Of a stretch of 64,000 nt of DNA, positions 43,567-64,000 are shown in pieces; the stretch's first letter is position 1; each line of letters begins with the position of its first letter. The position numbers were made by a program, and so were the translations under genes. This DNA comes from Bordetella sp. BOR01 (GTDB lineage Bacteria; Pseudomonadota; Gammaproteobacteria; Burkholderiales; Burkholderiaceae_B): contig NZ_JAHUWT010000003.1 of assembly GCF_019218885.1 (NCBI RefSeq), positions 1,364,001-1,428,000 of the forward strand, read 5' to 3'. The notes beneath the pieces were generated by a model. That model was not told the DNA's origin. It ran no database searches and saw only the letters and a list, made by a program, of their open reading frames with translations.

Positions 43567-43578
43567 TCAGTGTACTAA
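43567..43578. promoter_or_regulatory. PicR-type operator at picR promoter
   Basis: TCAGTGTACTAA fits the TCAG-N4-CTNN pattern that I recall for Alcaligenes faecalis PicR. It lies 13 bp upstream of the MarR gene start, so it probably mediates autorepression. Confidence 0.7.
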
Positions 43579-43590
43579 CAATATAAGGCG

Positions 43591-44133
43591 ATGTTTCCCA
43601 TGCCGGAACGAGACAACCACCAGGCCAGAAAGGCGCGCGGGACGACCCGGATTGCCGACAATACGGTGTTCGACCCGGCCAAGCAGGTATTGTGGTCGCG
43701 CCCTGGCTACCTGGTGCGCCGCCTGAACCAGATCCACTACGCGCTGTTCTACGAAGAGTGCAAGACGCAGAACGTCACGCCCGTGCAATACGGGGTGCTG
43801 ACCGCCTTGTCGCTCAGCCCGTGGCTGGACCAGACCGCCATCGGCATGGAACTGGGCCTGGACCGCACCACCACGGCCGATGTGATCAAGCGGCTGCAGG
43901 AGCGCGGCTTGGTCGAGCGGCGCGTCAATCCCAACGACAAGCGCTCGCGGCAGGCGGTGATCACCCAGGAAGGGTTGCGCATCATGGGGTTGCTGCAAGG
44001 GGGCATGGCGCGCGCCCAGCAGCGCCTGCTCGAGCCGCTGACGCCGCGCAACCAGGAAATCTTCATGAAGCTGCTCTCGACCCTGGTCGACGCCAATAAC
44101 CAGTACAGCCGCACGGCGCTCAAGTCGTTCTAG
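43591..44133 (+). CDS. picR: MarR-family repressor, PicR-like
   Basis: This 180-residue winged-helix protein has MarR features: NVTPVQYGVLTALSLSPWLDQTAIGMELGLDRTTTADVIKRLQERGLVERRVNPNDKRSRQAV near residues 60-125, containing the recognition helix (DRTTTADVIKRL) and the wing (NPNDKRSRQ). An ATG three codons downstream is also possible. The TCAG-N4-CTGA-type sites in this window (one here and seven more in the promoter regions of the pyridine genes) make it the likely repressor of the cluster. In Alcaligenes faecalis PicR, 6-hydroxypicolinate is, from memory, the inducer. A NicR/BpsR-type nicotinate regulator is the main alternative. Confidence 0.8.
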   Translation: MFPMPERDNHQARKARGTTRIADNTVFDPAKQVLWSRPGYLVRRLNQIHYALFYEECKTQNVTPVQYGVLTALSLSPWLDQTAIGMELGLDRTTTADVIKRLQERGLVERRVNPNDKRSRQAVITQEGLRIMGLLQGGMARAQQRLLEPLTPRNQEIFMKLLSTLVDANNQYSRTALKSF

Positions 44134-44160
44134 TTCCAGGCGGCGGGCCAGGCTCGATAC

Positions 44161-45282
44161 CTAGGCCACGCGGTAGGGTTCCAGTGCCGCCAGGTCTGGC
44201 TCGATGCCGATGCCAGGGGTATCGGGCAGCCGCAGCCAGCCATTTTCCAGCTTGCCCAGCGGGCAGACCCGCTCGCGCAGCGGATTGGGGTTGGCGTCCA
44301 CTTCGACCAGGCCCGCCGGGCCCAGCGCCGCGCGCAGTTGCATGGATGCGGCCAGTCCGATGCCGCCGCCCAGCCAGTGCGGGCAGAACACCAGCCCCGC
44401 CTGTTCGGCATGACGGGCCACCGCCAGGCAGCCCGTAATCCCGCCCCACTTGGCGACATCGGGTTGCAGGAAGCGCAGATGCCCATTGTTGGCGGCCGCT
44501 TCGAAGTCCGCCTGCCCGCGGATGTTCTCGCCCGCCGCCAGAGCTATCGGGGTGCTGTCGGCCAGCTTGCGCCATACATCCAGGGGTTCGTCGGCCGCCA
44601 GCGGTTCTTCGATCCAGTAGGGGTCATAGCGTTCCAGCGCGGCAATGCGCTGGGCGGCGGTGTCGGCTTCCCAGGCCTGGTTGGCGTCGACCATGATCTG
44701 CGCCTGCGGGCCCAGCGCGTCGCGCATGGCCTGGAAGTCGGCAATGTCTTTATCGGGCTGGAAGCCCACCTTGAACTTGAATGCGGTATAGCCCTGCGCC
44801 TGCCGGGCCAGCGCGGTGCCGGCGACGTTCTCGGGCCCCAGCCCGCTGGCGTACAGGCGCACGCGGCCATCGGCTTGCGGCGTATCGGCCAGCAGGCGCC
44901 ACAGCGGCAGGCCGGCGCGCCGGGCCTGCATGTCCCACAGCGCCTGGTCGATGGCGGCAATGGCCTGCGCCAACGGCCCGGGTTCGCCGGCCTGCAGGGC
45001 CATGCGGCGCAGGCGCTGCGTCAACTGGTTCCAGGTGGCGGCGGGCTGGTCGCTGGGCGTGCCTTCGACCAGCGGCGCGATGATCTCGCGCACGATGCGG
45101 GCGCGATGCTCGGCGCCCACGGTGGGAAAGTTGCAGAACACCTCGCCCCAGCCCCAGGCGCCGTCGCGGGCACTGATGCGCAGGAACACGGCGGGGCGGT
45201 TGGTCATGCTGCCCACGGCCGCGGCAACGGGCTGGTCTATGGGCGCGCGGTACACCCAGCATTCGACTTTCTGTACGGTCAT
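44161..45282 (-). CDS. enolase-superfamily enzyme (mandelate racemase / muconate lactonizing family)
   Basis: This 373-residue enzyme has the capping N-terminal domain and a TIM barrel with the family residues: FKFKVGF (a KxK motif near residue 164), metal ligands in MVDANQAW, WIEEPLAADE and ALAAGENI, and later DVAKWGGITG and CPHWLGGG. The family abstracts the alpha-proton of a carboxylate to racemise, dehydrate or lactonise it. The substrate is not evident. It is transcribed together with the Bug receptor gene (12-bp gap) and lies convergent with picR. Confidence 0.85.
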   Translation of the reverse strand: MTVQKVECWVYRAPIDQPVAAAVGSMTNRPAVFLRISARDGAWGWGEVFCNFPTVGAEHRARIVREIIAPLVEGTPSDQPAATWNQLTQRLRRMALQAGEPGPLAQAIAAIDQALWDMQARRAGLPLWRLLADTPQADGRVRLYASGLGPENVAGTALARQAQGYTAFKFKVGFQPDKDIADFQAMRDALGPQAQIMVDANQAWEADTAAQRIAALERYDPYWIEEPLAADEPLDVWRKLADSTPIALAAGENIRGQADFEAAANNGHLRFLQPDVAKWGGITGCLAVARHAEQAGLVFCPHWLGGGIGLAASMQLRAALGPAGLVEVDANPNPLRERVCPLGKLENGWLRLPDTPGIGIEPDLAALEPYRVA

Positions 45283-45294: not shown

Positions 45295-46296
45295 TTACTC
45301 CACCGAGATACCGATGTCGGTCGCCACTTTGCGCCACTTCTTCAGCTCGTCGCCGATGTACTGCCGGAACGCTTCGGGCGTGCCCGCGTCAGTGGTCAGG
45401 CCGGCTTCGGCCAGGCGCGCCTTGATGGCGGGCTCGGCCTGGATCTTGTTGAAGGCCTGGTTCAACCTGTCGACGATGGGGGCGGGCAAGCCGGCCGGGC
45501 CGGCCAGCCCCTGCCAGGCCACGGCCTCGAAACCGGGCAGATTGGCCGCTTCGGCAATGGTGGGGATGTCGGGGTATTCGGGCCGGCGCGTCAGGCCGCA
45601 CACGCCCAGCACCACCAGTTTGCCGGCATTGACCTGCTGCATCATCGAGCCCTGGTCGGCAAAGATCATGTCCACGTGTCCCGCCACCAGGTCGCCCACC
45701 AGGGCGCCAGTGCCCTTGTAGGGCACGTGCAGCAGCTTGGTGCCGGTGCGCGACTGGAACAGCTCGGCGGCCATCTGCTGCATGCTGCCGGTGCCTGACG
45801 ACCCGTAAGTAAGCTTGCCGGGGTTGGCCTTGGCATAGGCGATCAGTTCGGCAGCGGTACGCGCCGGAACCTGCGGGTTGACCACCAGCACGTAATTGAC
45901 GTTCACCGTCTTGGTGATGGGCGCCAGGTCGGCCAGCGGATCGATCGGGTTGTTCTTGTAGACCACCGGGTTGATGCCCAGGATGGCGATGTTGCCCACC
46001 AGCAGGGTGTAGCCGTCGGGCGCCGCGCGCTTGACGAGTTCGGCGCCGATGTTGCCGCTGGCACCCGGGCGGTTTTCCACAATAATGGTCTGGCCCAGTT
46101 CCTTGCTCAGTTCGGGCGACATGATGCGGGAATAGATATCCACCGCGCCGCCGGGCGAGAAGGGCACGACCAGCCGGATGGGCTGGCCGGGATAGGCGGG
46201 CTGGGCATTTGCCCGCACACCCGCCGCCAGGGCCATGGTGGCCAGCGCCGTTCCTTGCAGGAACTGGCGCCGTGTGGGGGGTGGGGGTACGCGCAT
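45295..46296 (-). CDS. Bug-family tripartite tricarboxylate receptor
   Basis: This 333-residue periplasmic receptor starts at ATG 46296, with AAGGAGA just upstream, and has a Tat-like signal (PTRRQFLQGTALATMALAAG). Bug motifs are YPGQPIRLVVPFSPGGAVDIYSR, ENRPGASGNIGAELVKRAAPDGYTLLVGN and YGSSGTGSMQQMAAELF. It shares an operon with the enolase-superfamily gene, so both probably act on one carboxylate. A LysR gene is divergent from it. No TctAB membrane genes are nearby. Confidence 0.88.
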   Translation of the reverse strand: MRVPPPPTRRQFLQGTALATMALAAGVRANAQPAYPGQPIRLVVPFSPGGAVDIYSRIMSPELSKELGQTIIVENRPGASGNIGAELVKRAAPDGYTLLVGNIAILGINPVVYKNNPIDPLADLAPITKTVNVNYVLVVNPQVPARTAAELIAYAKANPGKLTYGSSGTGSMQQMAAELFQSRTGTKLLHVPYKGTGALVGDLVAGHVDMIFADQGSMMQQVNAGKLVVLGVCGLTRRPEYPDIPTIAEAANLPGFEAVAWQGLAGPAGLPAPIVDRLNQAFNKIQAEPAIKARLAEAGLTTDAGTPEAFRQYIGDELKKWRKVATDIGISVE

Positions 46297-46424: not shown

Positions 46425-47432
46425 ATGAGTGGCCTGCATCCTTCCCAGCCTGATGCCTGGTCGGTCTCGCGGTCTGCCGCGTACCGGCTGGACCGCGTGC
46501 GCCTGCGGCACCTGCGCCTGCTTGAAGTGATCGACCGCGAAGGCTCGCTGGGTGCCGCGGCACGCGAGCTGGGCATCAGCCAGCCCGCTGTCACCCTGTT
46601 GCTGCGCGAGCTGGAAGACGTATTCGGCGCGCGGCTGGTCGAGCGCGATGCGCGCGGCGGCCGGCTGACCATGGCGGGGCGCCATGCGCGCGACCGCCTG
46701 GTCATTGCCATGGCCACCGTCAATGCCGCCATCGGCGCGGCCCAGCAGCCCGCAGGCGCGCCCATGCTGCGCGTGGGGTGCGTGCAGTTGGTGGGGTTCA
46801 GCTCGCTGCCCCAGGCACTGGCACGCCTGCTGGCGCAGGATGCCCTGCCCTATATGCACATCGAAGAGGCCGAGGCCGTGACACTGATCGCGGCGCTGGC
46901 GGCCGGCGAGCTCGATTGCGTGATCGGCTGGCTGGACGAAACCATCGCGTCCACCGTGAACCTGGACAGGATTCATGTCGAGCCTTTGTGGTCGGGCCGG
47001 ATGCAGGTGTTCGCCTCGGCCGCCCATCCCCTGGCGACGCGCAAGCAGGTCCGCATGGCCGAACTGGCCGGATGCCCCTGGGTGGTGCCGCATCGCGGCT
47101 CGCGCACCTATGCGGCCTTCCAGCGCCTGTTCCTGAACAGCGGCCTGGCCGCGCCGCGCCCGCAGCTTGTGTGCACGTCGATCCATACGGGCGTGCATAT
47201 GGTGGCCGCCGGCCCGTTCGTCAGCATCGGCCCCGACCGCCTGATCGCCCGATACCGGGATAGCCACGGCATCCGCGCATTACGCGGCGGCGAACTGGAT
47301 ACGGGGCGCACGCAATTATCGTTTTTCACGCTGAAAGAAGCCGCCGGCTTCGAACCGGCAATGCGGCTCAAGCAGGCCTTGCTGCGCACCCGGCCGGATG
47401 AAAGCGGATATCCCCTTGCGGACGGGGCCTGA
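46425..47432 (+). CDS. LysR-family transcriptional regulator
   Basis: This 335-residue protein has a LysR winged helix with RLRHLRLLEVIDREGSLGAAARELGISQPAVTLLLRELEDVFGARL near residues 25-72 and an effector domain with LRVGCVQLVGFSSLPQALARLL and VPHRGSRTYAAFQRLF. It is divergent from the Bug/enolase-family pair, with a 128-bp gap whose last 40 bases are AT-rich, so it probably controls that pair. Nothing links it to the pyridine genes apart from position; no TCAG-N4-CTGA site is seen at its promoter. Confidence 0.85.
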   Translation: MSGLHPSQPDAWSVSRSAAYRLDRVRLRHLRLLEVIDREGSLGAAARELGISQPAVTLLLRELEDVFGARLVERDARGGRLTMAGRHARDRLVIAMATVNAAIGAAQQPAGAPMLRVGCVQLVGFSSLPQALARLLAQDALPYMHIEEAEAVTLIAALAAGELDCVIGWLDETIASTVNLDRIHVEPLWSGRMQVFASAAHPLATRKQVRMAELAGCPWVVPHRGSRTYAAFQRLFLNSGLAAPRPQLVCTSIHTGVHMVAAGPFVSIGPDRLIARYRDSHGIRALRGGELDTGRTQLSFFTLKEAAGFEPAMRLKQALLRTRPDESGYPLADGA

Positions 47433-47519: not shown

Positions 47520-47531
47520 TCAGTATGCTGA
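47520..47531. promoter_or_regulatory. PicR-type operator B1 upstream of picC
   Basis: TCAGTATGCTGA lies inside the near-palindrome GTCAGTATGCTGAC (47519-47532). It starts exactly 20 bp before operator B2. A TATAAA (47533-47538) between the two could be the -10 element. Confidence 0.75.
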
Positions 47532-47539
47532 CTATAAAA

Positions 47540-47551
47540 TCAGTATACTGA
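47540..47551. promoter_or_regulatory. PicR-type operator B2 upstream of picC
   Basis: TCAGTATACTGA is a perfect 12-bp palindrome, 20 bp after B1. Confidence 0.75.
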
Positions 47552-47616
47552 AGTAAATCACACCCGCGGGACCCTGCCAGCCAAGGTAGCCAAGCGGGCA
47601 ACTCATTTACATATCA

Positions 47617-47628
47617 TCAGTATACTGA
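47617..47628. promoter_or_regulatory. PicR-type operator B3 upstream of picC
   Basis: TCAGTATACTGA, identical to B2, lies 77 bp further on and 53 bp before the picC start. It could roadblock transcription or help DNA looping with B1/B2. Confidence 0.75.
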
Positions 47629-47681: not shown

Positions 47682-48644
47682 ATGACTACAGTGCGCAAGA
47701 TCGCCTTCGAGGAACACTACACGGCGGTCGGCTTTGGCGATTATTCACAAGCGTTCGTGCAACACCTGGACCCGGCCACCTCGGCCGAGCTGGGCGCCCG
47801 GCTGACCGATTTCGGGCCCGGACGGCTGGCATTGATGGACCGCGCCGGTATCGACTATGTCATCCTATCGCAGACCGGCCCTGGCGTACAGGGCGAACGC
47901 GACCCGGCCGTGGCCCTGAAGCGGGCGCGCGAGAACAACGATTTCCTGGCCGCCCAGGTGGCCACGCGTCCCGATCGTTACGGCGCCTTCGCCACCCTGC
48001 CCATGCACGATGCGGCCACCGCTGCCGCCGAATTGCAGCGCGGCGTAGAGCAACTGGGTTTCAAGGGCGCCCTGGTCAACGGCCACACCAATGGCGTCTA
48101 TTACGACGACCCTGCCTATGACGTTTTCTGGGAACGCGTGCAGGCGCTGGATGTGCCGCTGTACCTGCATCCCTTCTATGCCTATACCGAGCCGCATGCC
48201 TACCAGGGCCATCCCGAGCTGGCGGGCGCCACCTGGGGCTGGGGCGTGGAAACCGCAACCCATACCCTGCGCCTGATCTTCGGCGGGGTGTTCGACCGCT
48301 ATCCGGGCGTGAAGGTCATCCTGGGGCACATGGGCGAGGGCCTGCCGTTCCAGCGCTGGCGCTTCGACAGCCGCTTCGCCGCGTACCCGTATGGCGTCAA
48401 ACTGCAGCGCAAGCCGTCCGAATACATAGGCTCGAACGTGCTGATCACGACATCCGGCGTGTGCTCGCACGCCACGCTGGTCGGCGCCATTGCCGAAATG
48501 GGCGCCGAAGCGGTGATGTTCTCTATCGATTACCCCTACGAATCCACCGAGCTGGCGGTGGAATTCATCGAGACCGCCCCGCTGGACGAGGCCACGCGCG
48601 AGCTGGTCTGTCGCGGCAATGCCCAGCGCCTGTTCAAGCTCTGA
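47682..48644 (+). CDS. picC: 3,6-dihydroxypicolinate decarboxylase (amidohydrolase-2 family)
   Basis: This 320-residue TIM-barrel protein is of the ACMSD / gamma-resorcylate decarboxylase family. Metal-site residues include the N-terminal FEEHY (the E-x-H variant), H163 in PLYLHPFYAY, and H216 in VILGHMGEG; a late Asp lies in FSIDYPYES. From memory, the Zn-dependent PicC of Alcaligenes faecalis JQ135 needs His163 and His216, and both fall at the same positions here. It would convert 3,6-dihydroxypicolinate to 2,5-dihydroxypyridine without oxygen. It is the first gene of an operon with the pyridine ring-cleavage genes, and the ATG follows GGGGAG by about 11 bases. Confidence 0.85.
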   Translation: MTTVRKIAFEEHYTAVGFGDYSQAFVQHLDPATSAELGARLTDFGPGRLALMDRAGIDYVILSQTGPGVQGERDPAVALKRARENNDFLAAQVATRPDRYGAFATLPMHDAATAAAELQRGVEQLGFKGALVNGHTNGVYYDDPAYDVFWERVQALDVPLYLHPFYAYTEPHAYQGHPELAGATWGWGVETATHTLRLIFGGVFDRYPGVKVILGHMGEGLPFQRWRFDSRFAAYPYGVKLQRKPSEYIGSNVLITTSGVCSHATLVGAIAEMGAEAVMFSIDYPYESTELAVEFIETAPLDEATRELVCRGNAQRLFKL

Positions 48645-48665: not shown

Positions 48666-49418
48666 ATGCAGAAGATCTACCGCATCGGCCAGATCGTGCC
48701 GAGTTCCAATACCACGATGGAAACCGAGATTCCCGCCATGCTGGGCGCGCGCCAGCAGATCCGGCCCGAACGGTTCACCTTCCATTCCAGCCGCATGCGC
48801 ATGAAGAAAGTGGTGAAAGAAGAACTGGCCGCGATGGATGCCGAGTCCGACCGCTGCGCCGTCGAACTGAGCGACGCGCGCGTGGACGTGCTGGGCTACG
48901 CCTGCCTGGTGGCCATCATGGCCATGGGGCACGGCTATCACCGCGTGTCGGAACAACGCCTGCAGGCACACACCGCGGCCAACGGCGCCGATGCGCCCGT
49001 CATTACCAGCGCGGGCGCGCTGGTCAATGCCTTGCAGGTCATCGGCGCCAAGCGCATCGTGGTGGTGGCGCCCTATATGAAGCCGCTGACCGAACTGGTG
49101 GTGGATTACATCCGCAACGAAGGCTACGACGTGCTCGATTACCGGGCGTTGGAGATTCCCGATAACCTGGACGTGGGACGGCACGACCCGGCGCGCCTGC
49201 CGGACATCGTGGCGCAGATGGATACGCGCGACGTCGACGCCATTGTGCTGTCGGCTTGCGTGCAAATGCCGTCGCTGCCCGCGGTGGCCAAGGTCGAGGC
49301 GCTGACCGGCAAGCCGGTGGTCACGGCTGCCGTCGCTACGACTTACGCCATGCTCAAGGCGCTGGACCTGGAACCCGTCGTGCCGGGCGCAGGGGCCCTG
49401 CTGTCGGGCGCCTACTAA
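48666..49418 (+). CDS. maiA: maleate cis-trans isomerase (Asp/Glu racemase family)
   Basis: This 250-residue protein has the two catalytic cysteines of maleate isomerases: C80 in VLGYACLVAIMAMG and C198 in VLSACVQMPSLPAV, and an N-terminal RIGQIVPSSNTTMETEIP that binds the carboxylate. It converts maleate to fumarate, the last step before the citric acid cycle. It also corresponds to NicE of nicotinate clusters. The gene lies 21 bp after picC, with GGAGGACGAC before its ATG. From memory, the Alcaligenes JQ135 picCDEF operon does not contain an isomerase gene. Confidence 0.88.
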   Translation: MQKIYRIGQIVPSSNTTMETEIPAMLGARQQIRPERFTFHSSRMRMKKVVKEELAAMDAESDRCAVELSDARVDVLGYACLVAIMAMGHGYHRVSEQRLQAHTAANGADAPVITSAGALVNALQVIGAKRIVVVAPYMKPLTELVVDYIRNEGYDVLDYRALEIPDNLDVGRHDPARLPDIVAQMDTRDVDAIVLSACVQMPSLPAVAKVEALTGKPVVTAAVATTYAMLKALDLEPVVPGAGALLSGAY

Positions 49419-49430: not shown

Positions 49431-50243
49431 ATGAGCACTCTGCAATACGGCGCGCATGTGCACGCCAACGGTATCCGCCAGCACTATCTGCGCTATGGCG
49501 GCGAACGCGCCGGCCGCGACGCGGTGATCATCGTGCCTGGCATCACCAGTCCGGCCGTGACCTGGGGCTTCGTGGGCGAACGCCTGGGCCAGGCATTCGA
49601 CACTTATGTCCTGGATGTGCGCGGCCGCGGCCTGTCCGAAGCCTCGGACCGCCTGGATTACAGCCTGGATGCGCAGGCGGCTGACGTGATTGCCTTCGCC
49701 CGGGAACTGGGCCTGGCGCGCTACAGCCTGGTGGGGCATTCCATGGGCGCGCGCATCGGCATTCGCGCCGCGCGCCAGGCGCCGGCCGGGCTGGCCCGCC
49801 TGGTCATGGTGGATCCGCCGGTGTCCGGACCGGGCCGGCGCGCCTATCCGGCACAATTGCCCTGGTATGTCGATTCCATGGCCCAGGCGCGTCGTGGCAT
49901 GGATGCGCAGGCCATGCGCACCTTCTGCCCCACCTGGACCGACGAGCAATTGCGCCTGCGCGCCCAATGGCTGCATACCTGCGACGAACGCGCGGTGCTG
50001 GCCAGCTTCGAGGGTTTTCATACCGACGACATCCATGCCGACCTGCCGGCCTTGCGCGTGCCCGGCCTGCTGGTCACGGCCGAACGCGGCGAGGTGGTGC
50101 GCGATGACGACGTGAACGAGATCCAGCGCCTGGCGCCCGGCGTGGCGCACGTGCGGGTGGCCAGCGCCGGCCACATGATTCCGTGGGACAACGAAGCGGG
50201 CTTTTATGCCGCGTTCGGCGATTTCCTGGGCGTTGCCCTCTGA
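49431..50243 (+). CDS. picE: N-formylmaleamate deformylase (alpha/beta hydrolase)
   Basis: This 270-residue alpha/beta-hydrolase has a nucleophile elbow GHSMGAR with S104, an acid D128 in MVDPP, and H248 in ASAGHMIPW. From memory, NicD of Pseudomonas putida uses S101, D125 and H245, so all three are shifted by a constant three residues here. It would remove formate from N-formylmaleamate, giving maleamate. It follows the isomerase gene by 12 bp (AAGGAGAAC ribosome-binding site) and precedes the dioxygenase gene. Confidence 0.85.
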   Translation: MSTLQYGAHVHANGIRQHYLRYGGERAGRDAVIIVPGITSPAVTWGFVGERLGQAFDTYVLDVRGRGLSEASDRLDYSLDAQAADVIAFARELGLARYSLVGHSMGARIGIRAARQAPAGLARLVMVDPPVSGPGRRAYPAQLPWYVDSMAQARRGMDAQAMRTFCPTWTDEQLRLRAQWLHTCDERAVLASFEGFHTDDIHADLPALRVPGLLVTAERGEVVRDDDVNEIQRLAPGVAHVRVASAGHMIPWDNEAGFYAAFGDFLGVAL

Positions 50244-50256: not shown

Positions 50257-51300
50257 ATGCCTGTGAGCGATCATGAAATGATCAGTGCCTGGAAACAGGT
50301 ACTGACCCTGTCCAGGCTGCAAGCCGGCCAGACAGTCACCATCCTGACCAGCGCGGCCACGCATCCGCAGAACCTGTCCACGGCCCTGATCGCCGCCCAG
50401 TCGATGGGCGCGGTGGTCAACCGGCTGGACTTGCCGCCGGTCAACGGCGACAAGGCGCTCAGCCGCGATTCTCTGGCCTACCTGGGCACCACGCCCCTGA
50501 CCGGCAACCGCGCCGCGATTGCCGCCCTGAAAGAAAGCGACCTGGTGCTGGACTTGATGACGCTGCTGTTTTCGCCCGAGCAGCACGAGATCCTGAAAAC
50601 CGGAACCAAGATCCTGCTGGCGGTCGAACCGCCCGAGGTACTGGTCCGCCTGGTGCCCACCGAGGCCGACCGCGCACGCGTCAAGCGCGCTGCCGGGCGC
50701 CTGTCGCAAGCGCGCGAGATGACCGTGGTCTCGGATGCCGGTACCGACCTGCGCTGTCCGCTGGGCGAGTTCCCGGCCATCAGCGAATACGGATTCGTCG
50801 ACGAACCCGGCCGGTGGGACCACTGGCCCAGCGGCTTCGTGCTGACCTTTCCGAACGAGGGCGGCGCGCATGGCACCATCGTGCTCGATCGCGGCGACAT
50901 CCTGCTGCCGCAGAAGTGCTACGTGGCAGAGCCGGTGCGCCTGACGGTCGAGAACGGTTATGCGACCCGTATCGAGGGCGGCGTGGATGCCGAGCTGCTG
51001 AGCGAATACGTGGCCTCGTTCAACGACCCCGAGGCCTACGCCATTTCGCACATCGGCTGGGGCTTGCAGCCGCGCGCGCACTGGACGACCCTGGGCCTGT
51101 ACGACCGCGAGGCCACTATCGGCATGGACGCGCGCGCCTACGAGGGCAACTTCCTGTTTTCGCTGGGCCCCAACAACGAGGCGGGCGGCCAGCGCACCAC
51201 GACCTGCCATATCGACATTCCGCTGCGCCGCTGCACTGTGCGGCTCGATGGCGTGGACGTGGTGGCGCGCGGCAAGGTATTGGACGGAGACCCGGCATGA
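50257..51300 (+). CDS. picD: 2,5-dihydroxypyridine 5,6-dioxygenase
   Basis: This 347-residue protein matches NicX/PicD, a non-haem iron enzyme that opens the 2,5-dihydroxypyridine ring with molecular oxygen to N-formylmaleamate. Three metal-ligand positions agree exactly with my recollection of P. putida NicX: H265 (AISHIGWG), H318 and D320 (TCHIDIPL). It overlaps the amidohydrolase gene by four bases (ATGA). The alternative symbol is nicX. Confidence 0.9.
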   Translation: MPVSDHEMISAWKQVLTLSRLQAGQTVTILTSAATHPQNLSTALIAAQSMGAVVNRLDLPPVNGDKALSRDSLAYLGTTPLTGNRAAIAALKESDLVLDLMTLLFSPEQHEILKTGTKILLAVEPPEVLVRLVPTEADRARVKRAAGRLSQAREMTVVSDAGTDLRCPLGEFPAISEYGFVDEPGRWDHWPSGFVLTFPNEGGAHGTIVLDRGDILLPQKCYVAEPVRLTVENGYATRIEGGVDAELLSEYVASFNDPEAYAISHIGWGLQPRAHWTTLGLYDREATIGMDARAYEGNFLFSLGPNNEAGGQRTTTCHIDIPLRRCTVRLDGVDVVARGKVLDGDPA

Positions 51301-55420: not shown

Positions 55421-55430
55421 GTAAATATGC

Positions 55431-55442
55431 ACAGTGTACTGC
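55431..55442. promoter_or_regulatory. PicR-type operator C2 (weaker match)
   Basis: ACAGTGTACTGC keeps the CAG-N4-CTG core but has A instead of T at the first position. Confidence 0.55.
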
Positions 55443-55638
55443 CTATAAATCGAAATTCGGTCTTAGGGATTTCCCGAAGCGCGGGCGATGCCAGAACTGC
55501 TTCGGACAGGTGCCGGGAAGTGTCGCCGCGTTTTACAGAAACCCGCGCCAGCAAAGGCTCTAAGCCCGGTATGAAGCAGCCGCGCCGGGGCGTCGCGATG
55601 CCCTTGGAAGGGGCCGGCAACCCGCGGGCTTTACCTCG

Positions 55639-55667
55639 TTGACACTCGAAAAATCTATCAGTATGCT
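55639..55667 (+). promoter_or_regulatory. sigma-70-like promoter of the TRAP receptor/molybdenum hydroxylase operon
   Basis: TTGACA (55639-55644) and TATGCT (55662-55667) are separated by 17 bases. The -10 element falls inside operator D1, so bound repressor would block polymerase. This lies about 210 bp upstream of the receptor start, so a long 5' leader is implied. The leader (55690-55876) has no gene I can support. The region 55443-55638 likewise shows no convincing gene. Confidence 0.65.
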
Positions 55668-55669
55668 GA
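55658..55669. promoter_or_regulatory. PicR-type operator D1
   Basis: TCAGTATGCTGA covers the -10 element of the predicted promoter and starts 20 bp before D2, the same spacing as B1/B2. Confidence 0.75.
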
Positions 55670-55677
55670 ATAAAAAA

Positions 55678-55689
55678 TCAGCATACTGC
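55678..55689. promoter_or_regulatory. PicR-type operator D2
   Basis: TCAGCATACTGC fits TCAG-N4-CTNN and lies just downstream of the predicted transcription start. Confidence 0.65.
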
Positions 55690-55876: not shown

Positions 55877-56980
55877 ATGCAACGACGCCGTTTTCTTGCT
55901 CAAGCCGCCGGCGCCGCCGGTGCCGGGCTGGCTACCGCCAGCCTGCCCGCGCTGGCGCAAGGCAGCCCCACCGTGCGCTGGCGCATGTCCACCAGCTGGC
56001 CCAGAAGCCTGGACACCATCTACGGCTCGGCCGACGAACTCTGCAAGCGCGTGTCGCAGCTTACCGACGGCAAGTTCGAGATCCGCGCGTTCCCGGGCGG
56101 CGAGCTGGTGCCGTCGCCGCAGAACATGGATGCCGTCAGCAACGGCACGGTGGAATGCAATCACGTGCTCAGCACGATGTTCGTCGGCAAGAACACGGCG
56201 CTGACCTTCGACACGGGCCTGTCGTTCGGCCTGAATGCGCGCCAGCACAATGCCTGGATCCACTACGGCGGCGGCCTGGAACAACTGCGCAAGCTGTACA
56301 AGAAGTACAACATCGTCAACCACGTCTGTGGCAACGTCGGCGTGCAGATGGGCGGCTGGTACCGCAAAGAGATCAATACGGTGGCCGACCTGCAGGGCCT
56401 GAACATGCGTATCGGCGGCATCGGCGGCATGGTGCTGTCCAAGCTGGGCGCGGTGCCCCAGCAAATTCCGCCGGGCGATATCTATCCCGCGCTTGAAAAA
56501 GGCACCATCGATGCCGCCGAATGGATCGGGCCCTACGACGACGAAAAACTGGGCTTCAACAAGGTGGCGCCGTTCTACTATTCGCCCGGCTGGTTCGAGG
56601 GCAGCGCATCGATCACCTCCATGGTCAACGACAAGGCCTGGGAGGCCCTGCCGCCCGCCTACCAGGCGGCATTCGAGTGCGCCTGCGGCGAACAGACCAT
56701 GAGAATGCTGGCCAACTACGATGCCCGCAATCCGCTGGCCCTGCGCAAGCTGGTTGCCGGCGGCGCCAAGCTGCGCTTCTTCCCCAAGGAAGTCATGGAT
56801 GCGGTATACAAGGCTTCGCAAGAACTGTGGGTCGAGCTGTCGGACAAGAACCCCGATTTCAAGGCGATCTACCCCGGCTGGGAAAAATTCCAGGTCGACG
56901 AGGCAAGCTGGTTCCGTGTGGCCGAGAACGCCCTGGACAACTACACGTTTGCGGCAGTGGCGCGGGCCCATTCCAAATAG
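55877..56980 (+). CDS. TRAP-type periplasmic substrate-binding protein (orphan)
   Basis: This 367-residue protein has a Tat signal (MQRRRFLAQAAGAAGAGL) and the DctP fold with WRMSTSWPRSLDTIYGSADELCKRVSQLTDGKFEIRAFPGGELV at the start, NMRIGGIGGMVLSKLGAVPQQIP near residue 176, and ALEKGTIDAAEWIGPYDD near 205. No TRAP membrane subunits (DctQ/DctM) are in the window. It is the first gene after the predicted promoter and probably the periplasmic receptor for the pyridine carboxylate. In JQ135, from memory, the related operon begins with picT1. Confidence 0.85.
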   Translation: MQRRRFLAQAAGAAGAGLATASLPALAQGSPTVRWRMSTSWPRSLDTIYGSADELCKRVSQLTDGKFEIRAFPGGELVPSPQNMDAVSNGTVECNHVLSTMFVGKNTALTFDTGLSFGLNARQHNAWIHYGGGLEQLRKLYKKYNIVNHVCGNVGVQMGGWYRKEINTVADLQGLNMRIGGIGGMVLSKLGAVPQQIPPGDIYPALEKGTIDAAEWIGPYDDEKLGFNKVAPFYYSPGWFEGSASITSMVNDKAWEALPPAYQAAFECACGEQTMRMLANYDARNPLALRKLVAGGAKLRFFPKEVMDAVYKASQELWVELSDKNPDFKAIYPGWEKFQVDEASWFRVAENALDNYTFAAVARAHSK

Positions 56981-57005: not shown

Positions 57006-59378
57006 ATGAAGACAGAAACCGCCGGCCATGCGGCACCGGCCGGCGCGCGCCAGGGTGTGGGCGCGCGCGTGCCGCGCAAGGAAGATGCGCGCCACCTGCA
57101 TGGCAAGGGCAACTTCGTGGCCGACATGGCCATGCCGGGCCTGTGCGAAGTGGCGTTTCTACGCAGCCCGCTGGCCCATGCGCGCATCGATGCCGTGCGC
57201 GTGCCCGACAGCGTGGCCGCCTGTGTGGTGCTGCGCGACATGATGGCCGACGCGCGCGATATCGTGGCCGATTCCACGCTGCCTACCTACCAGTCGTCCA
57301 GCCAGCCGCCGCTGGCCTCGGGCAAGGTGCGCTTCGTGGGCGAACCGGTGGCCATGACCTACGCGCCCACCCGCGCCGAGGCCGAAGACTACGCCGAACT
57401 GATCGAAGTGGACTACGACGACCTGCCTGTGTATGCCGACGTAGCCAGCGCCCAGGCGGCCACCAGCGAACTCATGCACGCCCACTGGCGCGACAACGTC
57501 TTCGTCACGCTGAATATCGACAAGGATTTCGAGGCCAACGCCGCCCGGGCCGACCTGGTCGTGCGCCGCAAGGTCGACCTGGCGCGGCAGTGCATGGTGC
57601 CCATGGAAGGCAAGGCGGTGCTGGCGTACTGGGACCACCAGGCCGACCAGTTGGTGGTGGTCAGCGCCACCCAGGTGCCGCACATGATCCGCAGCATCCT
57701 GGCGCAATGCCTGGACCTGGACCAGGGGCGCGTGCGCGTGATCTCGCCCGACGTGGGCGGCGCGTTCGGCTACAAGTGCGTGCTGCAGCAGGAAGAACTG
57801 TGCGTGGCATGGCTGGCCAAGACCCACAAGCGGCCGTTCCGCTTCATTGAAGATCGCCGCGAACACCTGACGGCGGGCGCCAACTCGCGCGAACATTATT
57901 ACGAGATGGCCGCCTATGTGGACAAGCGCGGCAAGCTGCTGGCGCTGGATGCGCAGGTCACCATCGATGGCGGCGCGTATTCGGTATGGCCGTTCACCAT
58001 CGGGCTGGAGCCCGGCCAGGCGATCGGCAATCTGCCGGGGCCTTACGGGTTCAAGGGCTACCGCTGCGTAACCCGCTGCGTGGCCACCAACAAGCCCGGT
58101 TTCGTGCCGTACCGCGGCGTGGCGCGCACCGGCGTGTGCTTTGCCATGGAGCTGACCATGAACGCCATCGCGCGCGAAGTGGGCCGCGAACCCTGGGAAG
58201 TGCGCCTGGAAAACCTGGTGCAGCCCGAACAGATGCCTTATGTGAACGTCACCAACAAGCACCTGGACAGCGGCGACTACCCGGCCAGCCTGCGCAAGGC
58301 GCTGGAAATGATAGACGCGCCGGGTGTGCGGGCGCGTCAGGCGGCGGGCGAACCCGACGGCCGGCTGATCGGCCTGGGCGTGGCCACCTATACCGAACAG
58401 GCGGCCCATGGCACGTCAGTGTTCGCGGCCTGGGGCACGCCGGTGATCCCGGGCCACGACCAGGCCACGGTGCGGGTCACGCCCGACGGCGGGCTGGAAG
58501 TGCGCGTCGGCGTGCATTCGCACGGCCAAGGCATGGAAACCACCTTTGCCCAGATCGCCAACGAGATCCTGGGCATCGACATTGCGCGCATCAAGGTGCT
58601 GCATGGCGATACCGGACAGACGCCGTTTTCCACCGGCACCTACGCTTCGCGTTCGCTGGTGATGTCGGGCGGGGCCGTTTCACAGGCGTGCAAGCGGCTG
58701 CTGCCGCGCATGACGCATATTGCCGCGCATTTGCTGCAGGCCGATCCGGCCCAGGTGGTGCAACAAGACGGCCGCTACAGCGCCGCCGGCAAATCGGTGC
58801 CCAGCAGCGAGGTGGCCGATGCCTGGTACCTGCGGCCGCATCGCCTGCCTGCCGACGTGGACCCGGCCGGCCTGGAGGTGCACGTGGGCTACAAGCCCAA
58901 GGTGGACACCGGCTGCTTTACCTATGCCAGCCAGGCCGCCGTGGTGGCCGTGGACCCGGGCACGGGTGCCGTCGAGATCCTGGACTACGCCATCGTGGAA
59001 GACTGCGGCACCATGATCAACCCCATGGTGGTCGAAGGCCAGACCATCGGCGGCGTAGCCCAGGGCATAGGCACGGCGTTCCTGGAAGAGGTGCCCTACG
59101 ACGGCAACGGCCAGCCGCTGGCCTCGACCCTGGCCGACTACATGCTGCCCGGCGCCACCGAAGTGCCCAACCTGCGCCTGCATCATTTCGAGACCCCGTC
59201 GCCGCACACCGAGTTCGGCGCCAAGGGCATGGGCGAAGGCGGTGCCATTGCGCCCCCGGCGGTGCTGTTCGGCGCCGTCAACGACGCGCTGGGACGCGTG
59301 GGGGCGGCCGAGCTGTCGCATACGCCGCTGACGCCCCTGCGGGTGCTGGCCGCCATTGCCGCCGCGGAGGCCGCATGA
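57006..59378 (+). CDS. molybdenum hydroxylase large subunit, picolinate dehydrogenase candidate
   Basis: This 790-residue protein is the molybdopterin-binding subunit of a xanthine-dehydrogenase-family hydroxylase. Typical segments are VGEPVAMTYAPTRAEAEDYAELIEVDYDDLP near residues 115-145, VGGAFGYKC near 250, and KGMGEGGAIAPPAVLFGAVNDAL near 740, which holds the catalytic Glu. The usual AYRGAGRPE loop is changed to PYRGVARTG near 372. By position and my knowledge of PicA it should hydroxylate picolinate at C6. It lies 25 bp after the TRAP receptor gene and overlaps the FAD-subunit gene by four bases. Confidence 0.87.
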   Translation: MKTETAGHAAPAGARQGVGARVPRKEDARHLHGKGNFVADMAMPGLCEVAFLRSPLAHARIDAVRVPDSVAACVVLRDMMADARDIVADSTLPTYQSSSQPPLASGKVRFVGEPVAMTYAPTRAEAEDYAELIEVDYDDLPVYADVASAQAATSELMHAHWRDNVFVTLNIDKDFEANAARADLVVRRKVDLARQCMVPMEGKAVLAYWDHQADQLVVVSATQVPHMIRSILAQCLDLDQGRVRVISPDVGGAFGYKCVLQQEELCVAWLAKTHKRPFRFIEDRREHLTAGANSREHYYEMAAYVDKRGKLLALDAQVTIDGGAYSVWPFTIGLEPGQAIGNLPGPYGFKGYRCVTRCVATNKPGFVPYRGVARTGVCFAMELTMNAIAREVGREPWEVRLENLVQPEQMPYVNVTNKHLDSGDYPASLRKALEMIDAPGVRARQAAGEPDGRLIGLGVATYTEQAAHGTSVFAAWGTPVIPGHDQATVRVTPDGGLEVRVGVHSHGQGMETTFAQIANEILGIDIARIKVLHGDTGQTPFSTGTYASRSLVMSGGAVSQACKRLLPRMTHIAAHLLQADPAQVVQQDGRYSAAGKSVPSSEVADAWYLRPHRLPADVDPAGLEVHVGYKPKVDTGCFTYASQAAVVAVDPGTGAVEILDYAIVEDCGTMINPMVVEGQTIGGVAQGIGTAFLEEVPYDGNGQPLASTLADYMLPGATEVPNLRLHHFETPSPHTEFGAKGMGEGGAIAPPAVLFGAVNDALGRVGAAELSHTPLTPLRVLAAIAAAEAA

Positions 59379-60208
59379 AAGCCGCGCGTTTTGATTATGT
59401 GCGTGCCGGTTCCGTGGCGCAGGCCGTCGAACTGCTGCGCGAGCACGAAGGACGCGCCAAGCTGATGGCGGGCGGGCAATCGCTGGGGCCCATGCTGAAC
59501 CTGCGCCTGGCGCGTCCGGCCGTGGTGATCGATATCGCCGGCCTGGCCGAGCTGCGCACCGTCACCGAACAAGAGGGTGGCCTGCGCGTGGGCGCCGGGG
59601 TGACGCACGCCGAGCTCGAAGACGGCGTGCATCCCTTGTTGCGCGGGTCGGCATTGCAGCACGTGGCCGGCGGCATCGCCTATCGCGCTATCCGCAATCG
59701 CGGCACGGTGGGTGGCAGCCTGGCGCATGCCGATCCGGCTGCCGATTGGGTGCTGACCATGGTGGCGCTGGGCGCCCAGATCGAGATCGCCGGGCCGGCG
59801 GGTTCTTCGCGCCGCGTGGCCGCTGGCGAATTCATGCAGGGCGCCTACACCACCGCCGTCGGCGACGACGAACTGATCGCGGCCGTGCACGTGCCGCGCT
59901 CCACCGCGCAGGCACGCTGGGGCTACTACAAGTTCTGCCGCAAGACGGGCGAGTTTGCCGAGGCCAGTTGCGCCGCCTGGTTCGATCCCGCGGCCAAAGT
60001 GGCCCGCGTTGCCGTCGGCGCCCTGAATGGCGCGCCTGCCTTGCTGCCGGTGCTGGCCGCACAGGTGGCGCAGTCCGGCATGGCGCCTGCCGATGACAAG
60101 CACATCCTGGACGAGCTGGCTGGCGTCATGCCCGACAAAGACCCGCTGCATCGCAAGCTGCACGCCACCGCCGTGGCGCGCTGCCTGGCGCAGGCCCTGG
60201 CCGCATAG
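59375..60208 (+). CDS. molybdenum hydroxylase FAD-binding (medium) subunit
   Basis: This 277-residue protein matches subunit M of the xanthine dehydrogenase family: LMAGGQSLGPMLNLRLARP near residue 30 (FAD-binding AGGQSL), and IRNRGTVGGSLAHADPAADW near 105 (TVGGSLAHADPA). It would pass electrons from the iron-sulfur subunit to FAD. The ATG at 59375 overlaps the large-subunit stop (ATGA). Confidence 0.88.
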   Translation: MKAARFDYVRAGSVAQAVELLREHEGRAKLMAGGQSLGPMLNLRLARPAVVIDIAGLAELRTVTEQEGGLRVGAGVTHAELEDGVHPLLRGSALQHVAGGIAYRAIRNRGTVGGSLAHADPAADWVLTMVALGAQIEIAGPAGSSRRVAAGEFMQGAYTTAVGDDELIAAVHVPRSTAQARWGYYKFCRKTGEFAEASCAAWFDPAAKVARVAVGALNGAPALLPVLAAQVAQSGMAPADDKHILDELAGVMPDKDPLHRKLHATAVARCLAQALAA

Positions 60209-60216: not shown

Positions 60217-61425
60217 ATGGCTCAAGTTTCATTGGAAATCAACGGCAAGCGGGTCTGCCACGAAGCTCCCGCGCGCATGCACCTGGGCGACTTCCTGCGC
60301 GACCAGGCGCGCCTGACCGGTACCCACCTGGGCTGTGAACACGGCGTGTGCGGTGCCTGCACGGTACTGCTGGACGGCGAGCCGGTGCGTTCGTGCATCG
60401 CCTACGCGACAGCTTGCGAGGGCCGGCATGTCACCACCATCGAAGGCTATGACGACGACCCCGTCATGGCCCGGTTGCGGCCCGCCTTCACCCACCACCA
60501 TGCCTTGCAGTGCGGTTATTGCACACCCGGCATGCTGGCCACGGCGCGCGATATCGTGCTGCGCCTGCCGGATGCCGACGAGGCTCGCGTGCGCATCGAG
60601 TTGTCGGGCAACCTGTGCCGCTGCACGGGCTATATGGGCATCGTGGCGGCGGTGATGTCAGTGCTGGCCGGATTGCGCGCCCAGCCCGATGCCGCGGTGT
60701 CGGCCTTGCGCGATGCGCTGGCGCAGGGGCGCGGCGCCGCGCCGGCGGCCCCCCAGGCTGCGCCTGCCGTCTTCCAGGCATTCGCGCCCGTGGCCGCGCC
60801 GCCCGCGCCCGCCGCGCCGGCATCGGCTGCGCCCGTACCGGATGCAGCCTCGCCTGCCCGCGCGCCCGGCAAGGGCAACCGCATCGAAGGCGGCTTCACT
60901 GTGCCGTTCCCGCCGGACCAGGTCTGGGCTTTCATGGTCGATCTGCCCGCCGTGGCGGCCTGTCTGCCGGGTGCCGTCATCCAAGAGCACGAGGGCGATC
61001 GCGTCAAGGGCAAGATCGCCATCAAGTTCGGCCCCATGGCAGCCGCCTTCAACGGCGCCGCGCGGCTCGAGCGCGACGATGCCGCCAAGCGGGCCGTGTT
61101 CCGGGGCGCCGGCCAGGATTCCCTGAGCCAGTCGCGCGCCACCGGCGATATCGCCTATCTGGTGCATGCGCTGGACGACGGGCACACGCGCGTGGACGTC
61201 GACCTGCAATACACCTTGCAGGGGCCGCTGGCGCAGTTCTCGCGGTCGGGGCTGGTGCAGGATTTCGTGCGCCGCATGATCGCCGATTTCGGCAAGAACG
61301 TCGGCGCGCGGCTGGGCAGTGGCGTCGGCGACGGTCCGCCGGCGCAGGCGGAGTTCAATGCGGTGGGCATGTTCTTCAGCGTGTTGTGGATGCGTATCAA
61401 GCGCTGGTTCGGCCGCGCAAGCTGA
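60217..61425 (+). CDS. fused [2Fe-2S] subunit and CoxG-like protein
   Basis: This 402-residue protein joins two parts. Residues 1-155 are a molybdenum-hydroxylase small subunit with the plant-type ferredoxin Cys set (GCEHGVCGACTVLLDG) and the second cluster (CGYCTPGM ... CRCTGY). A Pro/Ala-rich linker of about 65 residues (about 160-225) follows, then a CoxG/SRPBCC domain (GGFTVPFPPDQVWAFMVDLPAVAACLPGAV) ending with a short hydrophobic/amphipathic tail (FFSVLWMRIKRWFG). CoxG helps mature or anchor CO-dehydrogenase-type enzymes to the membrane. Fusion to the small subunit would couple the two functions. Confidence 0.87.
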   Translation: MAQVSLEINGKRVCHEAPARMHLGDFLRDQARLTGTHLGCEHGVCGACTVLLDGEPVRSCIAYATACEGRHVTTIEGYDDDPVMARLRPAFTHHHALQCGYCTPGMLATARDIVLRLPDADEARVRIELSGNLCRCTGYMGIVAAVMSVLAGLRAQPDAAVSALRDALAQGRGAAPAAPQAAPAVFQAFAPVAAPPAPAAPASAAPVPDAASPARAPGKGNRIEGGFTVPFPPDQVWAFMVDLPAVAACLPGAVIQEHEGDRVKGKIAIKFGPMAAAFNGAARLERDDAAKRAVFRGAGQDSLSQSRATGDIAYLVHALDDGHTRVDVDLQYTLQGPLAQFSRSGLVQDFVRRMIADFGKNVGARLGSGVGDGPPAQAEFNAVGMFFSVLWMRIKRWFGRAS

Positions 61426-61470
61426 CCACGGCGCCTTGCCGCGCCGCGAACCATGAACAGGGGGAAATCG

Positions 61471-62505
61471 ATGGACTCGCTGATGGCAATGATGGGGCGC
61501 CGCATCGGAGCGGCCATGATCGGCCTGGCGGCCGCGCTGGCATGCCAGGCCACCGCCGCCCAGGCCCTGGAGCCCTTGAAGGTGCGGCTGGACTGGACGC
61601 CCTGGGGCGTGCAGGCTGCCTTTCACCTGGCGCAGCACAAGGGCTGGTACAAGCAGGCTGGCCTGGACGTCACTCTGGAAGACGGCAATGGCTCGGTCAC
61701 CACGGTGCAGATCGTGGGGGCGGGCGACAGCTTCGACCTGGGCCACGCGGCGCTGGCCTCGATGATGATCGCGCGTGACAAGGGCTTGCCGGTGAAGGCA
61801 GTGGCCGTGTTCGCGCGGCATAGCGACATTGGCCTGCTGGTGCCGGCCGATTCCGGCATCACCGGCCCGGCGCAACTGAAAGGCAAGACGGTGGCCTACA
61901 CCGCCGGATCGCTGGAAGCGCCCTTCATCGATGCCTTCCTGGCACATGGCAAGCTGACCAAGGATGATCTCGGCCTGGTTAGCGTCGATGCCGCGAGCAA
62001 GGCCTCTACCTATGCCGTGGGTCGTACCGATGCGGCGTTCTCGACCATTCCGTTCTTCTTGCCGGTGGTGTCGCAGAACCGGCCGTCCAAGGCCGTGCGC
62101 TTCGCAGATTTCGGGCTGGACATGCCCAGTTTCGGGCTGTTCGCCAGCGAGCAGAAGCTGGCCGAGCGGCGCGAGGCCATTGCACGCTTTGCCAGCGTCA
62201 GCGCGCGCGCCTGGGAATATATCTACGATGGCCACCAGGACGAGGCGGTGGCGGCCATCCTGGCCCAGCGCCCGCAGGCGCGCCTGGATGCGCGCGTGCT
62301 GCGCGGCCAGATCGACGCGCTGCAAGACTATTTCGGCACGCCGGCTGCGGGCCAGCGGTTGGGCGCGCCAGTGCCGGCCGATTGGGTGCAGGCCGTCAAG
62401 ACTTTGTCTTCGGTCGGGCTGATGCGTGCCGATGCCGACCCTGCCGGGTTTTACGTGCCCGGCCTGGTAGAGCCGCAGCGCTACGACGCCATGGTGCGGC
62501 CATGA
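61471..62505 (+). CDS. NitT/TauT-type ABC transporter substrate-binding protein
   Basis: This 344-residue protein (start at ATG 61471, five bases after AGGGGGA) has a signal peptide and the NMT1/THI5-like fold: KVRLDWTPWGVQAAFHLAQHKGWYKQAGLDVTLEDGNGS and AQLKGKTVAYTAGSLEAPFIDAFL. The family binds thiamine precursors, sulfonates, nitrate or aromatic acids. Its place after the molybdenum hydroxylase genes suggests it brings in a pyridine carboxylate. Its stop overlaps the ATPase start by four bases. Confidence 0.85.
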   Translation: MDSLMAMMGRRIGAAMIGLAAALACQATAAQALEPLKVRLDWTPWGVQAAFHLAQHKGWYKQAGLDVTLEDGNGSVTTVQIVGAGDSFDLGHAALASMMIARDKGLPVKAVAVFARHSDIGLLVPADSGITGPAQLKGKTVAYTAGSLEAPFIDAFLAHGKLTKDDLGLVSVDAASKASTYAVGRTDAAFSTIPFFLPVVSQNRPSKAVRFADFGLDMPSFGLFASEQKLAERREAIARFASVSARAWEYIYDGHQDEAVAAILAQRPQARLDARVLRGQIDALQDYFGTPAAGQRLGAPVPADWVQAVKTLSSVGLMRADADPAGFYVPGLVEPQRYDAMVRP

Positions 62506-63290
62506 CGCCATGGGCCGTGGCGGCGCGCGAGGTCGGCAAGCAGTATCCGGGCGAGCGCGGCGTGCGCGCGCTGGATACGGTGTCGCTGCAACTGCCGGCG
62601 GGGCGCTTTCTCAGCATCCTGGGGCCCAGCGGCTGCGGCAAGAGTACCTTCCTGCGTTGCGTGGCCGGCCTCGAGACCATTACCCAGGGCGAGTTGCAGG
62701 TCGAAGGCCACGGGGTACAGGGCCCCCCCGATGGGGTGGGTATGGTGTTCCAGCGCGATGCGCTGCTGGATTGGCGCAGCATCCGGCGCAATGTGTTGCT
62801 GCCCATCGAGTTCGCGGGCAAGCCGGTGGCCGCCTATGCCGACAAGGTGCGGGCGCTGTTGGCGCTGACCGGCTTGCAGGATTTCGCCGAATGCTATCCG
62901 CATGAATTGTCCGGTGGCATGCGCCAGCGTGCCGCCATCTGCCGCGCGCTGGTCGACGACCCGCGCCTGCTGCTGATGGACGAGCCGTTCGGTGCCCTGG
63001 ATGCCCTGACGCGCGACCAGATGAACGTCGAGTTGCAGCGTATCTGGATGGACATCCGCAATACCGTCTTGTTTGTCACGCACGGCATTGCCGAGGCCGT
63101 GTTCCTGGCCGATACGGTGATCGTGTTCTCGCCGCGCCCCGGGCGCGTGGTCGAGACCATCGCCATCGACCTGCCGCGCCCGCGCCCGCTGGCCATCCGC
63201 GAAACCCCCGGGTTCGGCCGCTATGTCAGCCATATCCGCGGCCTGTTCCAGCAGATGGGGCTGATCGACGAAGGAGTACGCACCCCATGA
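62502..63290 (+). CDS. NitT/TauT-type ABC transporter ATP-binding protein
   Basis: This 262-residue ATPase has Walker A LGPSGCGKST near residue 40, signature ELSGGMRQRAAICRAL near 133, Walker B LLLMDEPFGALDALTRD near 155 and an H-loop FVTHGIAEAVFLAD. The DEPFGALDALTR sequence is characteristic of the SsuB/TauB/NrtD group. It overlaps the binding-protein gene and the permease gene by four bases each, so the three are clearly co-transcribed. Confidence 0.9.
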   Translation: MTPWAVAAREVGKQYPGERGVRALDTVSLQLPAGRFLSILGPSGCGKSTFLRCVAGLETITQGELQVEGHGVQGPPDGVGMVFQRDALLDWRSIRRNVLLPIEFAGKPVAAYADKVRALLALTGLQDFAECYPHELSGGMRQRAAICRALVDDPRLLLMDEPFGALDALTRDQMNVELQRIWMDIRNTVLFVTHGIAEAVFLADTVIVFSPRPGRVVETIAIDLPRPRPLAIRETPGFGRYVSHIRGLFQQMGLIDEGVRTP

Positions 63291-64000
63291 GTCGAATGTC
63301 CCGAAAACTGCTGCACGGCGCGGCCGGGCTGGCTTCGCTGCTGTTGTTCCTGTTGTTGTGGGAAGTGCTGGCGCGCGCGCTGCATGTGCGCCCCATCATG
63401 TTGCCGCTGCCCTCGCAGATTGCCGTCGAGCTGGCCACCGACTGGCGCTGGTATGCCGGGCATGCCTGGTACACCTTGCTGACCACGGCCGCCGGTTTCG
63501 CGGCCGCCGTGCTGGGCGGCGTGCTGATGGCAGTGCTGCTGGTGGGGTCACGCTGGTTCGAAAGCATCTTCTATCCCTTGATTGTTGCGCTCAACAGCGT
63601 GCCCAAGGTGGCGGTGGCGCCGCTGTTCGTCATCTGGCTGGGCACCGGCGCCGAGCCCAAGATCGCCATCGCCTTTCTCATCGCGGTCTTCGCCATCGTG
63701 GTCGATACCGTGCATGGGCTGAAGTCGGTGCCGCAAGACGTGCTGGACCTGGGACGGGTGCTCAAGGGCTCGCGGCGCGACTTTTTCTTCAAGGTGCGCC
63801 TGCCCGCCGCGCTGCCTTCTATCGTGACCGGCATGAAAGTGGCGATCTCGCTGGCGCTGGTGGGTGCCATCGTCGGCGAATTCGTGTCGTCGCAGCGCGG
63901 CCTGGGCTACGTCATCATGAGCGCGCAGGGCACTTTCGACACAGTGCGGGTCTTCAGCGCGCTGTTCGTGCTGGCGCTGATGGGCATGGCGCTGTTCGGC
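63287..64000 (+). CDS. NitT/TauT-type ABC transporter permease, partial
   Basis: The frame runs off the right edge with about 238 residues present. It has an N-terminal membrane span, then several others. The conserved SVPQDVLDLGRVLKGSRRDFFFKVRLPAALPSIVTGMKVAISLALVGAIVGEF segment is the ATPase-contact EAA loop. It starts at ATG 63287, overlapping the ATPase stop, with AAGGAG 10 bases before it. It forms the channel of the importer. Confidence 0.9.
   Translation, partial: MSRMSRKLLHGAAGLASLLLFLLLWEVLARALHVRPIMLPLPSQIAVELATDWRWYAGHAWYTLLTTAAGFAAAVLGGVLMAVLLVGSRWFESIFYPLIVALNSVPKVAVAPLFVIWLGTGAEPKIAIAFLIAVFAIVVDTVHGLKSVPQDVLDLGRVLKGSRRDFFFKVRLPAALPSIVTGMKVAISLALVGAIVGEFVSSQRGLGYVIMSAQGTFDTVRVFSALFVLALMGMALFG

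Follow-up and report, generated by a model that had tools for sequence, protein, structure and literature searches.

A probable orthologue of the picolinic acid degradation (pic) cluster in Bordetella sp. BOR01

Picolinic acid is an isomer of vitamin B3, and gene clusters for its degradation (pic) have been described in Alcaligenes faecalis JQ135 and Bordetella bronchiseptica RB50. Here we examine a pic cluster in a 64,000-nucleotide stretch of the 6.18-Mb genome of Bordetella sp. BOR01 (hereafter the window), which covers positions 1364001-1428000 of contig C23 and stops 227 bases before the contig end. According to a 2023 paper (PMC10142695), the RB50 cluster carries picG between picC and picE, has two unknown genes that part picR from picC, and has picT divergent from picB; a second, nearly identical picGEDF copy lies in the nic cluster of RB50, the pic cluster is also found in B. 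petrii and other species, and picG of JQ135 lies away from the cluster. By these descriptions, the BOR01 locus resembles that of RB50 in the placement of picG, the picGEDF order, the divergent picT and picB, the clustering of picA1A2A3 and picB1-4, and the presence of other genes between picR and picC. It differs in that the latter are three genes (enolase-superfamily, Bug and LysR) rather than two unknown ones, and in that the second picGEDF copy of RB50 was not found in this genome. With JQ135 it shares the PicA to PicF enzyme set and the divergent picT and picB, whereas picG sits here in the picC operon and there away from the cluster. Lower enzymes equivalent to PicD, PicE, PicF and PicG also occur in nic and hpo clusters, in which the upper pathway differs.

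Our analysis indicates that the locus is very probably an orthologue of the published pic cluster. A stretch of 20.5 kb holds intact genes for each step from picolinate to fumarate (picA1A2A3, a four-part picB, picC, picD, picE, picF and picG), together with a MarR-type picR, a tripartite ATP-independent periplasmic (TRAP) transporter binding protein, and an ATP-binding cassette (ABC) importer (Table 1). The order is picR(+); enolase-superfamily and Bug/TctC genes (-); lysR(+); picC, G, E, D and F (+); picB beta, alpha, reductase and ferredoxin (-); then picT, picA1, A2, A3 and the three-gene ABC importer, all (+). On translation, none of the 20 reading frames from 43591 onward has an internal stop (the last frame was traced to its stop), and all 20 proteins fall in the expected Pfam family except PicD, which has no Pfam or NCBIfam match at 1e-5. 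Each feature expected of a pic cluster is found: the three-part molybdenum hydroxylase PicA1A2A3, the four-part Rieske enzyme PicB (by families and synteny), the amidohydrolase-type decarboxylase PicC with His163 and His216, a lower pathway of PicD, PicE, PicF and PicG with solved homologues (E=4.9e-91 to 1.7e-122), and a MarR regulator with a putative operator shared by the pic promoters. A first-pass annotation of this DNA had proposed a complete picolinate-to-fumarate enzyme set, and this is borne out by the intact frames, the expected families, the solved homologues and the conserved grouping described below. Its preference for picolinate over nicotinate is likewise well supported, because homology, synteny and the shared operator all agree with it.

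The reactions in BOR01 are given here as predictions from gene content, reading frames, homology, synteny and operators. PicA1A2A3 would hydroxylate picolinate to 6-hydroxypicolinate; the PicA3 orthologues of two Alcaligenes loci (L026 and L027) align across residues 1-401 of 402. PicB would then convert 6-hydroxypicolinate to 3,6-dihydroxypicolinate. The closest solved structure to its alpha subunit is salicylate 5-hydroxylase (7c8z), a ring monooxygenase, which suits hydroxylation of 6-hydroxypicolinate and suggests that PicB may be a monooxygenase rather than a dioxygenase. PicC, which is related to solved gamma-resorcylate and other aromatic acid decarboxylases, would decarboxylate 3,6-dihydroxypicolinate to 2,5-dihydroxypyridine. 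Its length of 320 residues matches the expectation from the 963-bp RB50 gene, the product of which is active and loses activity when His163 and His216 are mutated (PMC10142695). In the lower pathway, PicD would open the ring of 2,5-dihydroxypyridine to give N-formylmaleamate, from which PicE would remove formate and PicF ammonia, leaving maleate for PicG to isomerise to fumarate. The solved homologue of PicF (3ot4/3uao) is named a putative isochorismatase, and we take it to be the maleamate amidohydrolase of B. bronchiseptica.

The pic genes are grouped in many Proteobacteria. A scan of contigs with the Rieske alpha subunit gave at least 585 confirmed stretches from 591 candidates, of which the best 80 were used as loci, with flanks of up to 10 kb per side and companions called at identities of at least 38% (40-50% for some genes) over at least 40% of the query. 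The alpha subunit is accompanied by the beta subunit in 79 loci, the reductase in 72, the ferredoxin in 70, picC in 64, picA1 in 58, picD in 57, picF in 56, picR in 54, picE in 53, picG in 44 and picT in 29, and these counts are lower bounds because the flanks end at 10 kb or at the contig end. This grouping is not due to chance. The nearest alpha subunit among the best 80 is that of Bordetella petrii MY10 (95% identity), with Achromobacter at 90-91% and Alcaligenes at 80%. Within the genus, five of nine genomes (BOR01 included) carry an alpha subunit with an identity of 84% or higher; in one of these five, G005, an in-frame TGA interrupts the matched stretch. Of 200 sampled genomes of the family, 44 (BOR01 included; counted by eye) encode PicC at 64% identity or more over nearly its full length, and in one further genome PicC is split across two contigs. 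The synteny extends to Alcaligenes sp. SORT26 (L026), where picC-E-D-F, picB, picT, picA and the ABC genes keep the same order and relative orientation at 45-80% protein identity to the window, with picR inverted and picG not found.

The placement of picG inside the decarboxylase operon had been singled out by the first-pass annotation as a departure from JQ135. That contrast is right, though the arrangement is already in print, since PMC10142695 reports the same in RB50. Together with the contiguous picC-G-E-D-F order in 34 of the 80 loci, this rules out a novelty. A further 12 loci have C-E-D-F without G, and in these (L010, L011, L016, L025, L026, L029, L045, L048, L049, L077, L079 and L084) picC adjoins picE across a gap of 15 to 146 bases. 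Three Achromobacter loci (L008, L009 and L012) do carry picG, unlike relatives with picC and picE adjacent; the maleate isomerase gene has thus been gained or lost among relatives. The BOR01 genome itself has a single close homologue each of picD and picG, the runners-up having 30% and 34% identity, respectively, so that no second lower pathway like that of RB50 was seen.

Both the picC promoter and the divergent picB/picT promoter carry a conserved 12-bp palindrome, TCAGYRYRCTGA, which fits the form TCAG-N4-CTNN that we take to be the PicR site of JQ135. The relatives contain 176 exact copies in 62 of the 80 loci, none within a matched pic gene, whereas three scrambled versions of the site gave counts of 0, 1 and 0. 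When loci that lack the gene or have fewer than 300 bases upstream of it are omitted, an exact copy lies within 400 bases upstream of picC in 35 of 64 loci, of the ferredoxin gene in 53 of 70, and of picT in 20 of 29, as against 3 of 58 for picA1 and 0 of 55 for picD. The window has 10 matches with at most one mismatch (mean 1.86, maximum 5, in 100 shuffles), an enrichment that is partly circular because the site was first spotted by eye there; the test in the 80 loci is free of that circularity. Three of the 10 (12939, 52565 and 63954) lie outside the pic promoters, and 5 of the 17 exact sites in the whole genome fall in the cluster. PicR is the presumed binder of these sites, through which it would repress the picR, picCGEDF, picB and picT-A-ABC units, and picolinate or a pathway intermediate would be its likely effector, releasing it. 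The cluster had earlier been placed from 43567, which proves to be the first base of the operator-like site ahead of picR; the MarR gene itself runs from 43591 to 44133.

Several observations weigh against a pic assignment. One A. faecalis locus (strain AU14, L027) has picA, picB, picT and the ABC genes, but its 21 kb of examined sequence showed neither picR nor any of picC, D, E, F and G, unlike L026, which lacked a match to picG alone. Exact operators are absent from 18 of the 80 loci and lie within 400 bases upstream of picR in just 2 of 53. JQ135 and RB50 are known here by published description, and it was the named Alcaligenes and Bordetella relatives that served for sequence comparison. 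A search for genes of the XdhC/MobA maturation type found none in the cluster or the window. No NCBIfam match in a library search of the cluster proteins names a pic gene, which is also where the present reading has value for annotation, and the four PicB components score best on models of anthranilate dioxygenase (AndA) or phenylpropionate dioxygenase (HcaD), all below the curated cut-offs.

This last point, with salicylate 5-hydroxylase as best solved structure, could suggest that the Rieske system oxygenates anthranilate or salicylate and lies by accident beside a 2,5-dihydroxypyridine pathway. Yet the best model of the alpha subunit, AndAc, gives 440 bits, far under its cut-off of 750, picC is present in 64 of the 80 loci fetched with this very subunit, the operators are shared, and PMC10142695 identifies PicB as the enzyme that monooxygenates 6-hydroxypicolinate in clusters of this type, so that such an accident has next to no likelihood. 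It is highly improbable, if slightly less so, that the cluster degrades nicotinate and shares with pic clusters only the steps from 2,5-dihydroxypyridine onward. The lower genes are indeed common to nic clusters, and RB50 is reported to have both clusters with nearly identical lower genes (PMC10142695). Against this, the BOR01 cluster has, besides its Rieske oxygenase, a decarboxylase of the picC type, and its genome shows a single close picD and picG. The nicotinate route uses NicC, a flavin monooxygenase. No flavin monooxygenase family, and hence no NicC beside the lower pathway, appears among the Pfam matches of the 20 genes, NicC not having been searched for genome-wide. Both readings were set aside. 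The pic cluster of BOR01 is real, correctly read and already known; it is an ordinary one, and it carries little weight as a discovery, being in line with where pic clusters have been reported in Bordetella.

Table 1. Features of the pic locus of Bordetella sp. BOR01, in window coordinates
Feature	Position	Strand	Evidence or remark
Operator-like site before picR	43567..43578	.	TCAGTGTACTAA, 1 mismatch
picR, MarR-family regulator	43591..44133	+	Pfam MarR; orthologues in 54/80 loci
Enolase-superfamily (mandelate racemase/muconate lactonizing-like) enzyme; probable passenger	44161..45282	-	Pfam MR_MLE_N, MR_MLE_C
Bug/TctC periplasmic binding protein; probable passenger	45295..46296	-	Pfam TctC; start codon checked
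LysR-family regulator; probable passenger	46425..47432	+	Pfam HTH_1, LysR_substrate; start codon uncertain
Three putative operators before picC	47520..47628		TCAGYRYRCTGA, exact, at 47520-47531, 47540-47551, 47617-47628
picC, 3,6-dihydroxypicolinate decarboxylase (predicted)	47682..48644	+	Amidohydro_2; 320 residues; His163, His216
picG, maleate cis-trans isomerase	48666..49418	+	PDB 4fq7, E=2.7e-112
picE, N-formylmaleamate deformylase	49431..50243	+	PDB 4l0c 'Deformylase', E=4.9e-91
picD, 2,5-dihydroxypyridine 5,6-dioxygenase	50257..51300	+	PDB 7cn3, E=1.7e-122
picF, maleamate amidohydrolase	51297..51926	+	PDB 3ot4/3uao 'putative isochorismatase', E=7.5e-100; Pfam Isochorismatase
picB oxygenase small (beta) subunit	51934..52452	-	Pfam Ring_hydroxyl_B
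picB oxygenase large (alpha) subunit, Rieske	52449..53756	-	Pfam Rieske, Ring_hydroxyl_A; PDB 7c8z, E=2.1e-123
picB ferredoxin reductase	53790..55058	-	Pfam Pyr_redox_2, Reductase_C
picB Rieske ferredoxin	55080..55394	-	Pfam Rieske
Putative operators in divergent picB/picT promoter	55409..55689		55409-55420 and 55658-55669 exact; 55678-55689 with 1 mismatch
picT, DctP-type (TRAP) solute-binding protein	55877..56980	+	Pfam DctP
picA1, molybdenum hydroxylase large subunit	57006..59378	+	Pfam MoCoBD_1, MoCoBD_2, Ald_Xan_dh_C
picA2, FAD subunit	59375..60208	+	Pfam FAD_binding_5
picA3, [2Fe-2S] subunit fused to CoxG domain	60217..61425	+	Pfam Fer2, Fer2_2, COXG
ABC importer substrate-binding protein, NMT1/SsuA type	61453..62505	+	Orthologues in 24/80 loci
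ABC importer ATPase	62502..63290	+	
ABC importer permease	63287..64000	+	Stop 60 bases beyond window

The segment between picR and picC varies among relatives. In two genomes of the genus (G003 and G007), the match to the window stops at the end of picR (44133 and 44131, respectively) and resumes at 47502, with 72 and 95 bases between those ends in their own genomes; relative to them, the window has an extra segment of about 3.3 kb with the genes for the enolase, Bug and LysR proteins. The first-pass annotation made no mention of these three genes (44161-47432), which probably stand outside the pathway. The insertion occurs in one of eight same-genus relatives (G004), which alone among these has a close enolase homologue (83%; next best 53%), and each of the three genes is found in 1 of the 80 loci, always that of B. 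petrii MY10 (L007), which is probably the same genome as G004. Among solved structures the enolase-superfamily protein is closest to 3ddm, named simply a putative enzyme. The insertion leaves the operators of picC, on its downstream side, intact.

Could these genes contribute to the picolinate system, perhaps as a second uptake route? They sit between picR and picC both here and in B. petrii MY10, and some Bug proteins bind pyridine acids, as Bug27 and Bug69 do quinolinate (PMC11452294). However, the same paper reports no significant stabilisation of either protein by picolinate, and the nearest solved relative of the BOR01 Bug protein is 2dvz, with Bug27 (2qpq) ranking fifth. Moreover, the genes were not found in 79 of the 80 loci, 44 of the 80 hold both picR and picC, the picR-picC gap is merely about 250-280 bases in G003 and G007, and no operator site (at most one mismatch) lies between 43578 and 47520. 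A working role is therefore very unlikely, and it is less likely still that the module widens the cluster to a second acid substrate used together with picolinate. The three genes are probably passengers.

The first-pass annotation had counted two transport parts, where the window has four transport genes: the DctP-type binding protein PicT and the three-gene ABC importer. A TRAP dctQ-like gene begins 80 bases beyond the window and is truncated by the contig end; its 49-residue start has no Pfam match on its own, and the homologue in Achromobacter piechaudii (L012) is DctQ, followed by DctM. DctQ and DctM are the expected membrane partners of a DctP-type PicT. The substrates of the TRAP and ABC transporters in this cluster are presumptive. 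To the left, the cluster is bordered by trkA, trkH and a two-component system, which are unrelated to it.

XdhC-family proteins mature molybdenum hydroxylases, and the XdhC/MobA-like genes found at pic loci are therefore plausible candidates for the maturation of PicA. At L092 and at seven Achromobacter loci (L008-L012, L077 and L079), the picR-picC interval holds an XdhC/CoxI-like gene in place of the BOR01 insertion, alone in L008, L009 and L012, and paired with a MobA-like gene in L010 (15443-17400), L011, L077, L079 and L092. In the BOR01 genome, the only matches to the pair lie together on contig C24 (419449-421001; 74% and 48%), where they adjoin a second molybdenum hydroxylase of 945 and 182 residues (L099, 1942-6403). 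The description of the cluster as self-contained thus stands for the catalytic genes and, on the evidence of the contig, fails for the maturation of the cofactor. The conserved operator, the gain or loss of picG and the variable picR-picC content are usable markers of pic loci, and the two genes reported as unknown in this interval of RB50 (PMC10142695) may be an XdhC/MobA-like pair such as that of Achromobacter.

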